A stretch of 64,000 nucleotides of DNA from the NCBI GenBank assembly GCA_902776645.1, contig CACYQT010000003.1, positions 1 to 64,000 on the forward strand, written 5' to 3'. This document shows, in pieces, positions 100 through 6,271 of the stretch. The notes beneath the pieces were generated by a model. That model saw only the letters and a program-made list of their open reading frames with translations, had not been told where the DNA came from and made no database searches. The stretch comes from an uncultured bacterium. GTDB lineage: Bacteria; Verrucomicrobiota; Lentisphaeria; Oligosphaerales; Oligosphaeraceae. The translations under genes were made by a program, and so were the position numbers. Each line of letters starts with the position of its first letter. Positions within the stretch are counted from its first letter, which is position 1.

Positions 100-1677
100 T
101 CAGCTCCGTTCGACTTTCGCCTCAACCAGCTGGCGTGTATTGCCGTCAAAATTGAGGCCGATTGTCCAGATAGGAAGGCCACGGCCATGGTATGGCGCAT
201 CATAATGTTTTTCACGCACTTGTCTAAGGGCCTCATCCGCTGATTCGTTGACCTTCAGTTCGAAGATGAACACGCCGGCAGGAGAATCAGCGACAATGTC
301 CGCCTGCCCGTTGGCCTGCCGATCCTCCGTTGTGCAGCGGATGGCCTGCGACTTCAGCAAAACATACAGACAGCGCTCGTAGGAGAATTCGTGGACAGTC
401 CCTTCCTTTGAACCATACGGCAGAGCGGCGTACAGCGCCTTAAGCCCTTCGAAGAACTCATCCCATTCCGCCAGAAGCAGTTTGCTTCCAAGTGACGTCA
501 CCCAGTCAGGCTTCCTGTCGGCGATGGCGGCAGCCGTCAAAATCGCCAAATCCTTCCGCACCTCTTCGTTCGGCACACGAAGTTCATATAAATGCGACCG
601 TCGGTTGTAGTCGCCAATTGTCAGATAGCCAGTTTGGAAAAGCATCGGGACTGGCTTGAGATTGCGGATGTCCGACACATCGAAATCATCTTCCTGCACA
701 CCGCGGACGGATTCCATGTCTATGGAAAGAAAGCCATCCCGCTTGATGTAGTTCATGAGCATGGAGGCTTTTCCCGTCGTCCTCCAGTATGGCTTGAACT
801 CAGGTTCGCGTTTGGACAGATTCATGCCGATCGACACCGGATTGTAAACAGCTTCACCCTTGAACTTCCAGAAACGATATCCATTGAACCATCGTTTCAA
901 TTCCGCGCGATAGGCGTCATAGTCCATCTCCAACGCCTTCGCATGATCACGCATGTGTTCAGCGAAATATTCATCCAGCTCCGCCTCCGTGTAGCCCAGC
1001 ATCGTCGCATAATCGTCGTCAAAGGAAAGGTCAACGAGATTGGACAAAGCGGAGAATACCGACATCTTCGTAAATTTCGAGACACCAGTGATCATGAGGA
1101 AGCGGATTTTTCCAGTTCGGTCTTTCATCTGGCCGTAGAAACTCGCCAGCATCCCCCGTACTTTTTCCGCTTCTTCAGGCTTGTCCAGCAGCCGCGCCAC
1201 TGGATCGTCGTATTCGTCAATCAAAATGACAACACCCTTCTCGTTATTCTCGGTGGAAAGCACGTCGATGGCGTTTCCAAAGTTGACAATCGCAGTCTCG
1301 CTTGAATCATACGTCCCGCCAGCGTTTTGGATACCCATCTTCACCGTGTTCGAGAATGTGCGGCGAAATTCGTCACCGGACGACATCGCTGCGAAACCGA
1401 AATTGAAATGCAACACAGGATATTTTTTCCACTCGTAGTCCGTGTTCGATATGGCCAGTCCGTCGAACAGCTCCCGCCGCCCCTCGAAGATTGCCTTCAA
1501 TGTACTGATCATCAATGATTTGCCGAATCGGCGTGGACGCGCTAAAAAGAAACGACGCGCATCCCGCCGCGTAATCAATTGATGAAAATACGCAGTCTTA
1601 TCGACGTAGATGCATTTGTTCTCGCGAATTTCAGTGAAGTCGCTGGAATCAACTAGAATAGGTTGAAGCTTGTCCAT
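100..1677 (-). CDS. AAA-ATPase-like / PD-(D/E)XK nuclease-like protein (DUF1703 type)
   Basis: A 525-residue protein of the AAA-ATPase-like family (PF09820) with a C-terminal PD-(D/E)XK nuclease-like part (PF08011). The N-terminus has the family hallmark YVDKTAYFHQL followed by a P-loop variant RPRRFGKS near residue 50. An acidic Walker-B-like stretch VVILIDEYDDP lies near residue 150. The C-terminus carries GQADIVAD and FELKVN, matching the D...ExK pattern of the nuclease fold. The family is abundant in Bacteroidetes, PVC and gut bacteria, usually in many copies; its role is unknown, with defence or mobile-element links only suspected. The start is preceded by GAGGG. It stands alone apart from the cut frame downstream. 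The family call is firm; function is not known. Confidence 0.9.
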   Translation of the reverse strand: MDKLQPILVDSSDFTEIRENKCIYVDKTAYFHQLITRRDARRFFLARPRRFGKSLMISTLKAIFEGRRELFDGLAISNTDYEWKKYPVLHFNFGFAAMSSGDEFRRTFSNTVKMGIQNAGGTYDSSETAIVNFGNAIDVLSTENNEKGVVILIDEYDDPVARLLDKPEEAEKVRGMLASFYGQMKDRTGKIRFLMITGVSKFTKMSVFSALSNLVDLSFDDDYATMLGYTEAELDEYFAEHMRDHAKALEMDYDAYRAELKRWFNGYRFWKFKGEAVYNPVSIGMNLSKREPEFKPYWRTTGKASMLMNYIKRDGFLSIDMESVRGVQEDDFDVSDIRNLKPVPMLFQTGYLTIGDYNRRSHLYELRVPNEEVRKDLAILTAAAIADRKPDWVTSLGSKLLLAEWDEFFEGLKALYAALPYGSKEGTVHEFSYERCLYVLLKSQAIRCTTEDRQANGQADIVADSPAGVFIFELKVNESADEALRQVREKHYDAPYHGRGLPIWTIGLNFDGNTRQLVEAKVERS

Positions 1678-1802: not shown

Positions 1803-3170
1803 TCAATGTCCACTGGACGAAAACGCCTCGCTCGCATGGTAGGAACTGCGCACCAACGGGCCACAGACCGCGCAGGAGAAACCTATCTCATTCTCCGCCA
1901 CACGCTTCCAGTCTTCAAACTCCTCCGGGGAGACCATCCGCGCGACAGGCCAGTTGTCCTTCGTCGGCTGAAGATACTGCCCCAACGTCACGATCGACAC
2001 GCCCGCGTCATGCAGATCCACCAACGCCTGGCGGATTTCATCCGCCGTCTCGCCAAGGCCGAGCATCATGCCGGACTTCACAGCACAGCCTTGCGGAACA
2101 TGCTGCGCGGCATACTGCAGCACATCCAGTGAGCCGCGATAGGTCGCATAGCCGCGGATGACCGGCGTCAACCGTTCCACCGTCTCGATGTTGTGGCCGA
2201 AAACAGACACGCCGCTCGCAAGTACCGTGTCGACAGCATCATGCGAACCTTTGCAGTCGCTGACAAGCACTTCGACCTTCACGTCCGGACAACGCGTTTT
2301 GATGGCTTTGACCGTCGCCGCGATATGGGCGGAACCGCCGTCGGGCAGATCGTCGCGCGTCACGCAGGTGATGACGGCGAAACGCAGGCCAAGCGTTTCG
2401 ACCGTTTCCGCAACATGTTGCGGTTCTTCAGGATCCACGGGACGCGGCTTGCCATGCGCCACGGAGCAGAATTTGCAGTTGCGCGTGCAGATGTCGCCCA
2501 AAACCATGAACGTCGCCGTGCGATGCTTCCAGCAGTCGCCGCGATTCGGGCATTTCGCGCTGTCGCAAACCGTGTGCAACTTCGCGCGTTGCAACAACGA
2601 ACGCATCTCGACATGCTCCTTGCCGCCCATGAACGGCGCACGTAGCCACGACGGCTTGCCCAGTTCACGGCAGCACGGCGGCCTGCCCTGTCCGCGCAAC
2701 CAGCAGCGGAACTGGTCCGTCCGCGACGGTTCCGCGACTGACACGTCCGTCATGCGGGACAACTGTCCGTCGCCTTTCAGCATGTCGCAGGCCTCGCGAT
2801 CCGCCGGAGCCCAGTCCAAATCGTTCAACTGACGATGGTCGTGCCATCCGAACGACTGCCCTTCCTTCGCCTCCGGACGGCAGTTTTCCGCCACGTCGCA
2901 CAGCATGAAATGCAGGCGGACCGTCTTCTCCGGATAACGATGGACCAGTGAAAACAGTTCCAACGCATCCGTGATCTCAAGCCCGAGCTCCTCCTGAAGC
3001 TCACGGCGGATGCAATCCGCCAGACTTTCGCCTCCGCCCTGCTTGCCGCCAGGAAACTCCCACTTGCCGGCCAGACTGCCGCCCGGCCGACGGCTCGCCA
3101 GCAGCAGCTTGCCGTCACGGAAGGCAACTGCCGCGCAGACCTCCAAATACGCTGAATCCATATCGTCCAT
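1803..3170 (-). CDS. lipA: Nudix hydrolase-lipoyl synthase fusion
   Basis: A 455-residue protein of two joined enzymes. Residues 1-135 are a MutT-like Nudix hydrolase with a complete Nudix box at residues 42-64 (G42, E48, then REL-EEL-G-L). Residues 168-455 are lipoyl synthase, the radical-SAM enzyme that inserts two sulfurs into octanoyl groups on carrier proteins. The auxiliary cluster cysteines are C202, C207 and C213; the radical-SAM cysteines are C228, C232 and C235; the RSSY motif that supplies the serine ligand is at 441-444. The lipA half is of ordinary length, so the Nudix part is an addition. The frame is continuous with no internal stop. AAGG precedes the start. No lipB is in the window; a GcvH-like possible substrate is at 56363. 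Activity of both halves is inferred from motifs. Confidence 0.95.
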   Translation of the reverse strand: MDDMDSAYLEVCAAVAFRDGKLLLASRRPGGSLAGKWEFPGGKQGGGESLADCIRRELQEELGLEITDALELFSLVHRYPEKTVRLHFMLCDVAENCRPEAKEGQSFGWHDHRQLNDLDWAPADREACDMLKGDGQLSRMTDVSVAEPSRTDQFRCWLRGQGRPPCCRELGKPSWLRAPFMGGKEHVEMRSLLQRAKLHTVCDSAKCPNRGDCWKHRTATFMVLGDICTRNCKFCSVAHGKPRPVDPEEPQHVAETVETLGLRFAVITCVTRDDLPDGGSAHIAATVKAIKTRCPDVKVEVLVSDCKGSHDAVDTVLASGVSVFGHNIETVERLTPVIRGYATYRGSLDVLQYAAQHVPQGCAVKSGMMLGLGETADEIRQALVDLHDAGVSIVTLGQYLQPTKDNWPVARMVSPEEFEDWKRVAENEIGFSCAVCGPLVRSSYHASEAFSSSGH

Positions 3171-4048: not shown

Positions 4049-6271
4049 TTAATTTTCCTGTTTCTCTTCCGACGGCGCGGCTTCAACGGCTTCCGCCGGT
4101 TCCTCCGCCTTCGGAGCTTCCGTCTCAACGACTTCCGCCTGCGGCGCGGCCTCTTCAACGGCGGCCGGAGCGGCCTCCGCCTGCTGCGCGGCCTCTTCAA
4201 CGGCGACCGGAGCCTCGGGCTCCGCGACGGCTTCGTCTTCAAAAGCGTCCGCGTCGATCAGCTTGTTCTTGACGATCGCGTCCTCGATCCAGTTCGCGAT
4301 GTTCGCCGCGCCTTGTTCATTGTGCATGAACCAGTTGGACATCCACTTCTGGGCAGTGTGAGTACCTCCCACTTCGAAAAGCGCATGGCCGTCGACCAGC
4401 GGGATGTCAAACCGCTTGCAGTTCTGGCGGACTTGGTTCGTCAACGATTCGTAAAGCTTCACCTGGCAGTCCGCCCAGGCCTTGAAAGCCTCCGAATCAA
4501 ACGCCTTCTCGCCGCTGTTCTGCGGATAGACGGGATTCGGCAGCCAGCAAAGCAGTTTCGTGCCCGTCTCCTTGAACGCCGCGACGAATTCCTCAAAGGC
4601 CGTGTTCACGGCCGTCAGACGGGCGACCATCGCCTCTTCGTCCAACGTCTTGTTCACGGGAAGCTTCGCATCGCCCCACGTGAAGGAGAACACCGCCAGA
4701 TGCGGATTGAACGGCGTAATGTCACGCGCGATACGCGCCACGCCCTGCGCCGTCCCGCAGCCTTTGATGCCGACGTTCAGGACGCTGAGCTTGCCTTTTG
4801 TCTGGAAGCGCTTCTGGAGGCTGTTCTCCAGCAGCGCAGGCCACGACTTCTCAGCATCGTCCATGGACAGCGTCTGTTCGTCTCCGATGCAGACGACGCG
4901 GATTTTCGCATTCTCCATCGCCGCGACCGCCGCATGGTCCATGCGGACGGGACGATCACGAATCACTTCGTCGCCGTTCCACGGCCCGGACGTCGGGATG
5001 TGAATCACAGGACGGCTCACGATTTTGATTTCGCCGACGGGGCTCGCCGCGCCGATCTCCTTTGTGGCACAGTTTGAGCACAGCGTCGGTTTCGCGAAAT
5101 TGCCAAGATGGACCTGCAGCTGCTCCTGCACGGACCACTTGAACGTGGCGCCGCAACGCTCGCAGGTCAAATCCTCCGCCTTGTGGTTCTGCAGGAACTC
5201 CTGGCAGGACGCGCAACGGCGCTTCGGCTCCTCACGCTGGTTGCATTTGTCACGGATCTGGTCTTTCACGGTGTAGGTCCATGTGCCGTTGCAGCCTTGG
5301 ACGCTGCATGGACGCTCTTCGTCCTTCAGCGACATGAACGCCTTCACGCAGTCTTCGCACAGGCGGACAGGCGTATGGTTGTTCCCATGGACATGCGCCC
5401 CAAGCTGCATGCTGCGCGTCCAGACCCACTTGTTCGTGCAGGCCTTGTTCTGGCAGGGCACTTCGATGTCCTTCGCGTTCGCGTAGAAGTCGAAGCACTC
5501 CTTGCACATGCGCTGCGGCATGACGGGCTCCTGGCCTTCCGGCGTGCTGCGGATCACTTCCAGCTGCTCGTAGGCGGTCAGCGTCCACGTCCCTTTGCAG
5601 CCGTTGATCTTGCAGGGCCGCGTCTCGTCCTTCAGCTCGTTGAATTTCTTGAAGCATTCGTCGCACATGCGGCGCGGCGGATTGTCCAGGCTCTTGCCGG
5701 ATTTGATATGTTCAAGCTGCTGGTAGCGAGTCCATAGCACACTGTTTTTGCAGCCTTTGATACGGCACGGGAGATAGTCGTCCTTCAACGGCTTCAGCAA
5801 ATTGAAGCATTCGTCGCAAAGACGCGGCGCCGGCGGCTTGCCGCCGCTGGCGATCTGCTCGCGGGCCGTCCATGTCCACGTGTTCTTGCATCCGCGCAGA
5901 CGGCAGGGACGTTCCTGCGGCTCCACTTTCGAAGCCTCCGCCCTGCACTTCTCGCACAGCCCATGGGGCGGCGCCGGATTGTCCGTCTTCTGCTTGCGCA
6001 TCGCCTCCAACTGGGCGTGACGATTCCACACCCATGTTCCGTCACAACCTTCCGTGGAACATGGAAGTGTCTTGTCCTCAAGAGTCTGGAATATCGCGTA
6101 GCATTCCTCGCACATCTTTTCAGGACGTGGATTCTTGCCGCTTGCCAGCTTCTGTATCACTTCTTCCTTCGAGACGCGAATCATGTTTCCGCATCCGCGG
6201 ATACGGCATTTCACTTCCGTTTCCGGAAAAAAGTCACCTAAATTGCCAAAATTGCTTCCCAAAACGCACAC
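4049..6271 (-). CDS. Eight-fold zinc-ribbon protein with degenerate SGNH domain
   Basis: A 740-residue protein that I cannot match to a named family. Residues 21-405 hold eight tandem modules of about 45-50 residues. Each has a C-x4-C pair (C-x2-C in the last), a tryptophan-rich strand such as GTWVW, and a second C-x2-C pair, as expected of a zinc ribbon. Residues 455-670 resemble an SGNH/GDSL hydrolase (CIGDEQT, NVGIKG, then HNEQGAANIA). The catalytic serine position is E465 and the usual aspartate three residues before the histidine is W647, so it is probably inactive. Residues 675-740 are an Ala/Glu/Pro-rich tail. There is no signal peptide. The frame opens with GTG at 6271, but the AGGAG is better spaced for the TTG at 6262. 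A cytoplasmic scaffold or nucleic-acid binder is possible. Confidence 0.85.
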   Translation of the reverse strand: MCVLGSNFGNLGDFFPETEVKCRIRGCGNMIRVSKEEVIQKLASGKNPRPEKMCEECYAIFQTLEDKTLPCSTEGCDGTWVWNRHAQLEAMRKQKTDNPAPPHGLCEKCRAEASKVEPQERPCRLRGCKNTWTWTAREQIASGGKPPAPRLCDECFNLLKPLKDDYLPCRIKGCKNSVLWTRYQQLEHIKSGKSLDNPPRRMCDECFKKFNELKDETRPCKINGCKGTWTLTAYEQLEVIRSTPEGQEPVMPQRMCKECFDFYANAKDIEVPCQNKACTNKWVWTRSMQLGAHVHGNNHTPVRLCEDCVKAFMSLKDEERPCSVQGCNGTWTYTVKDQIRDKCNQREEPKRRCASCQEFLQNHKAEDLTCERCGATFKWSVQEQLQVHLGNFAKPTLCSNCATKEIGAASPVGEIKIVSRPVIHIPTSGPWNGDEVIRDRPVRMDHAAVAAMENAKIRVVCIGDEQTLSMDDAEKSWPALLENSLQKRFQTKGKLSVLNVGIKGCGTAQGVARIARDITPFNPHLAVFSFTWGDAKLPVNKTLDEEAMVARLTAVNTAFEEFVAAFKETGTKLLCWLPNPVYPQNSGEKAFDSEAFKAWADCQVKLYESLTNQVRQNCKRFDIPLVDGHALFEVGGTHTAQKWMSNWFMHNEQGAANIANWIEDAIVKNKLIDADAFEDEAVAEPEAPVAVEEAAQQAEAAPAAVEEAAPQAEVVETEAPKAEEPAEAVEAAPSEEKQEN

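Follow-up and report, generated by a model that had tools for sequence, protein, structure and literature searches.

The Oligosphaerales are poorly studied gut and sediment bacteria, and one of their genes raises the question of what a large protein might do that sets eight cysteine modules in front of an SGNH-fold domain without catalytic residues. The gene lies on the reverse strand of the window, that is, the whole stretch of 64,000 nucleotides that was analysed, in an open frame at 4049-6271(-). Answering the question requires settling where the protein begins, who carries it, what its parts resemble, and which of several functions these parts would allow.

The gene and its start codon

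Read from the GTG at 6271, the frame 4049-6271(-) encodes 740 amino acids, and close orthologues span it over its whole length. Since the protein is conserved in at least ten families, a chance origin of the frame is excluded. The GTG start of the initial annotation gives way to a TTG at 6262, codon 4 of that reading, which is most likely the true start: an AGGAG motif stands 7 nt 5′ of it, TTG is the start codon in 30 of the 33 loci compared (GTG in 2), and several loci lack any alternative start between this TTG and the upstream stop. The coding sequence from the conserved TTG would then occupy 4052-6262(-), or 4049-6262 with the stop, and yield 737 amino acids; residue numbers throughout are those of the 740-residue reading from GTG 6271. 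The retention of this TTG over most of the order, before a well-conserved gene, is a separate observation, and translational control is possible, in that a weak yet conserved start codon may limit translation or serve self-regulation. No Rfam or leader RNA match was found within the window, and no upstream leader is conserved beyond the Shine-Dalgarno region among five sequences from the window's genus.

The CAI of the gene (0.735, fifth of the 42 ORFs of the window, beside 0.738 for L2 and 0.736 for L3, with a small reference set) hints at good expression. Ribosomal protein genes also furnished a side observation at locus L097 (G000:C5:84000-103900), where the gene that comes after an S10/L3/L4/L23/L2/S19-like cluster is GNAT-like and unrelated to it; here the S10 operon appears to be split, or the contig misassembled.

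Distribution and inheritance

Of 48 genomes of the order Oligosphaerales (Lentisphaerota), 46 have one copy of the gene, which in some of them is interrupted by an insert or lies on more than one contig; the two that lack it have completeness values of 77% and 85%. Beyond the order, it occurs in a single genome of the same class (G050); the remaining genomes of the class match through generic SGNH domains only. In a sample of 388 genomes from the phylum the zinc array turned up in 26, each of them a member of the order. Two peptide patterns, run against 84,980 species genomes in a search that is not exhaustive, returned only records of Lentisphaerota/Victivallales/Oligosphaera or Verrucomicrobia MAGs. 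The named homologues belong to Lentisphaerota MAGs and to Oligosphaera ethanolica DSM 24202, which NCBI taxonomy places in the Oligosphaerales. The gene tree reproduces the families of the taxonomy and, judged from these sequences, the gene is vertically inherited. A phage origin was considered and discarded, no sequence relative having been found in viral contigs.

No model in Pfam or NCBIfam covers the protein, and a literature search found no paper on it or on its architecture, in agreement with the initial statement that no described family is built in this way. Both domain types were already known; it is the architecture and the family that are missing from the two collections.

An array of eight Cys4 modules

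Eight Cys4 modules follow one another on the reverse strand: module 1 at 6101-6208 (Cys 22/27/54/57), module 2 at 5945-6061 (Cys 71/76/106/109), module 3 at 5807-5905 (Cys 123/128/152/155), module 4 at 5654-5767 (Cys 169/174/203/206), module 5 at 5495-5614 (Cys 220/225/256/259), module 6 at 5348-5455 (Cys 273/278/305/308), module 7 at 5204-5308 (Cys 322/327/353/356) and module 8 at 5069-5164 (Cys 370/373/398/401). Seven of them read C-x4-C...C-x2-C and the eighth C-x2-C...C-x2-C, so that the description of eight tandem modules, each with a C-x4-C and a C-x2-C pair, stands for the eight Cys4 sets and for modules 1-7, and has to be amended for module 8, which starts with C-x2-C. All 32 cysteines are retained in 49 of 49 homologue rows, with one row lacking six only where its contig ends. 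The linker between modules, counted from the last Cys of one to the first Cys of the next, measures 13 residues in 342 of 342 intact cases. Loop length within the modules, unlike that of the linkers, varies between homologues, and in two of them (L056 and L064, genus g3) the inner loop of module 5 holds an Ala/Pro/Glu-rich insert of 60-70 residues.

Modules of the same number are 46-55% identical across species, and modules of different number 18-41%. A module is thus closer to its own-number counterpart than to the other modules, which implies that each has its own constrained role and that the array was complete before the order diversified. The array carries a net positive charge in all but one of 37 homologues, the exception being neutral (range 0 to +19). 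From the sequences and the models we infer that the modules bind zinc, and the regular 13-residue spacing would be compatible with the binding of a long polymer, as had been suggested.

Fold of the modules

Residues 1-677 of the 737-residue protein were modelled with AlphaFold2 at a pLDDT of 85 and a pTM of 0.43, and the fragment of modules 3 and 4, modelled alone, gave a single confident arrangement (pLDDT 93, pTM 0.74). In the model, the topology of a module according to DSSP is a strand, the C-x4-C turn, a strand and a helix with the R..QLE motif, followed after a loop by another helix, with the C-x2-C at its N-terminus in every module. In a zinc ribbon both Cys pairs sit in beta-hairpin knuckles; here the second pair caps a helix and there is a sequence match to zf_Tbcl, and the name zinc ribbons, used in the initial annotation, does not apply. 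In a treble clef, two ligands come from a zinc knuckle and two from the N-terminus of a helix (PMC4999995). The modelled modules share this arrangement of ligands, with the first Cys pair between two strands and the second at the helix start, and depart from the treble clef between knuckle and helix, where DSSP shows a helix and not the primary beta-hairpin. As for bound zinc, the structure prediction that had been proposed as a check on the modules contributes the topology of the model, next to the conservation of the Cys4 sets.

By sequence, the nearest family is Pfam PF13451 (zf_Tbcl, Probable treble clef domain), with which the modules have the Cys pattern and the E/R..QL helix motif in common. 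Module 8 exceeds the curated cut-off of this model in five orthologues; in the window protein it matches with E=0.017, at 15.5 bits against a cut-off of 24 bits, and matches at E below 0.1 occur in 22 of 37 homologues. Unlike zf_Tbcl, the family studied here strings eight copies into a fixed array, has C-x4-C in place of C-x2-C in seven of them, is fused to an SGNH domain, and has most of its modules under the Pfam cut-off. PF13451 (zf-trcl) itself was named in no paper that the literature search found. Among solved structures, Foldseek, which is weak for domains so small, gave no significant match to the module pair (best E 0.66). Among predicted structures, the two-module fragment resembles a phage protein of Siphoviridae annotated as 'putative zinc-ribbon domain' (A0A8S5MPS8; prob 1.00, E 7.8e-4, over 100 columns), which differs in being short (164 aa) and without an SGNH domain, with 20% identity and a TM of 0.45. 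The array is regular and probably rigid, although the whole-protein pTM leaves overall rigidity short of established.

An SGNH-fold domain without its catalytic set

Behind the array, at 4259-4945(-) (about residues 443-671), lies a domain with the flavodoxin-like SGNH fold. Pfam Lipase_GDSL_2 matches it in 33 of 37 homologues, Foldseek aligns it with solved SGNH structures (4rsh_A, TM 0.83; 7ddy_D, TM 0.81), and its pLDDT is mostly above 90. This domain carries Glu465 at the serine position, as first proposed. The placement of Trp647 at the Asp position proved to be one residue off: the Asp and His columns correspond to Asn646 and Met649, because the D-x-x-H retained by five divergent homologues falls exactly there (e.g., DPYHPN in L081) and His650 falls in the column of the Pro in the usual DxxHPN, where 9 of 36 rows have Pro. 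Trp647, which adjoins the Asp position, and Asn651 are almost invariant.

An SGNH enzyme is defined by Ser, Gly, Asn and His in blocks I, II, III and V. Of these the Gly is kept, while among 48 homologues Ser is found in one, the Asn of GxND in three (it is gone in 45) and His in five, and never all together. The serine column holds Glu or Asp in 43 rows, Cys in 3, Gln in 1 and Ser in 1, the only Ser-bearing row having Arg at the His position, and the His column is mostly Leu, Arg, Met or Gln. The complete Ser-Asp-His set appears in 0 of 48. The core of the fold persists (G463, D464, N499, N651 and G654), and the family thus shares with the SGNH/GDSL hydrolases (Lipase_GDSL_2; TesA; 4rsh, 7ddy) the fold, the block I/II glycines and the block I aspartate, and differs from them in the lack of conserved Ser, GxND Asn, Asp and His. 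Judged by these columns the domain is non-catalytic, as the initial annotation held, and the case that was to speak against it, a close homologue with an intact Ser-His-Asp set, is not found among the 48 rows. The preference for an acidic residue at the serine column may be functional. A second Pfam family, PF25182 (NonGDSL), gives weak matches (E up to 0.1) in 26 of 37 homologues, the window protein scoring 23.9 bits where the cut-off is 80. The SGNH domain is acidic, with a net charge from -1 to -12.

N-terminal peptide, tail and location

The protein opens with the peptide x-N-F-G-S-L-G-D-F-F-P (6223-6262(-)). Its first 14 residues (FGSLGD-F/L-FP in the family) are disordered in the model, with a pLDDT below 50, yet are among the best conserved of the whole protein (G6 in 41/48, L8 in 45/48, G9 in 46/48, F12 in 45/48, P13 in 46/48), which suggests a docking peptide. 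A search for the FGSLGD motif elsewhere in the genome gave DNA matches at chance level, with more for the reversed-pattern control, and says little, as the pattern missed the gene's own start. At the other end, the acidic tail first noted as Ala/Glu is present (4052-4258(-), Ala/Glu/Pro-rich); it is confined to the window's genus and one neighbouring genus, being lineage-specific and no feature of the family. The absence of a signal peptide was confirmed, and the protein would be cytoplasmic.

Gene neighbours

A gene for a Pal-like OmpA-domain lipoprotein (TIGR02802, 106.6 bits, under its cut-off) lies downstream of it in families f1, f8 and f9, followed by lipA, with a Nudix domain before lipA. 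The upstream gene is mreB in f4 and argS in f3, and G050 has a SpoU methylase gene downstream. No neighbour is common to all families, and synteny therefore does not give the function. The search for conserved neighbours that had been proposed succeeds for pal-lipA in loci of the window's own family and fails in most other families, and a Pal-related role drawn from this synteny was rejected on the same grounds.

Two other genes of the window deserve mention in their own right. At 1803-3170(-), a Nudix (MutT-like) domain (Pfam NUDIX, residues 14-126) is fused to lipoyl synthase LipA (TIGR00510 above cut-off) in a protein of 455 aa; several relatives share a fusion of comparable length, and in others the two frames are separate. 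At 100-1677(-) lies an AAA-ATPase_like + PDDEXK_9 protein (PF09820, PF08011) of a common family.

Possible functions

The reading that we favour, with a probability of roughly 0.4, is an order-specific, single-copy, cytoplasmic and non-enzymatic scaffold whose zinc array binds one extended ligand, most likely RNA. We infer the role of a cytoplasmic binding scaffold from strict conservation without catalytic residues, the regular array and the missing signal peptide. In such a protein, eight Cys4 modules on fixed-length linkers would form a regular, probably rigid array presenting eight repeated and individually specialised surfaces to one extended ligand, the stripped SGNH domain behind it would be a binding platform or cap, and partners would be brought in by this domain and by the disordered, conserved peptide at the N-terminus. 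RNA, in a ribosome-associated or RNP scaffold, is a guess by analogy, made first choice by the net positive array and by Oskar, whose OSK domain is an inactive SGNH domain that binds RNA (PMC12247748, PMC2848206). Against this reading, the charge of the array is just modestly positive, and the gene neighbours offer no consistent functional link.

Insect Oskar (LOTUS + OSK) likewise fuses an inactive SGNH domain to another module in a non-enzymatic scaffold, and the sole paper found by a literature search for treble clef and SGNH together concerns Oskar. The likeness is drawn without a claim of common descent: the window protein has a zinc array in place of LOTUS (Pfam scans of it and its homologues gave no LOTUS/OST-HTH match), and its SGNH domain is acidic, unlike the OSK surface, described as positive or hydrophobic (PMC12247748), so that this domain may not touch nucleic acid itself. 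It is rather unlikely that the protein is to these bacteria what Oskar is to insects, namely an RNP scaffold, here one found throughout the order. In that case a specific RNA would be organised by the inactive SGNH domain together with a rigid zinc solenoid of eight modules, structurally of a new type, and the conserved UUG start would keep translation of the protein low. The chance that the array represents a new structural type and serves in an RNP is a minority one.

The alternatives, in decreasing order of probability, are a protein scaffold, a DNA-binding protein, a zinc store and an unusual enzyme. The first, though doubtful, survives best: the array would align envelope or cell-shape proteins from the cytoplasmic side without nucleic acid. 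It draws on the position of the gene directly upstream of the Pal-like lipoprotein gene in most loci of three families, and downstream of mreB in a fourth, and on the acidity of the SGNH domain; zinc modules of such a kind also frequently bind proteins. However, the neighbours in other families are argS, the SpoU methylase gene or unrelated genes, and Pal is exported, whereas the zinc-array protein has no signal peptide.

It is unlikely that the protein is a nucleoid or regulatory factor whose modules read or coat double-stranded DNA like C2H2 arrays. Eight evenly spaced modules, each conserved individually, would suit it, and the weak Foldseek matches include C2H2 arrays on DNA, not significantly; but neither by sequence nor by fold does a DNA-binding array match at a meaningful E-value (best 0.66), the positive charge is modest, and neither an HTH nor another DNA-binding domain is present. 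A zinc store or zinc-sensing buffer, with the holding of eight zinc ions as its chief job, is highly improbable: the 32 invariant Cys and codon usage suggestive of good expression would fit, but it needs neither conserved module-specific residues, nor the linker geometry, nor a 230-residue SGNH domain. Least credible of all is an active enzyme with Glu or Asp at the serine position, for which those acidic residues and the D-x-x-H of the five divergent members speak, against the prevailing loss of His and of the GxND Asn.

Whichever ligand the preferred scaffold would bind, a large protein that belongs to the core of an entire order and is missing from almost all related bacteria points to an undescribed cell function by which the order is defined. 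Its geometry, with eight modules and 13-residue linkers without exception, makes for a sharp structural prediction, and Oligosphaera ethanolica DSM 24202 provides a cultured carrier of the gene.
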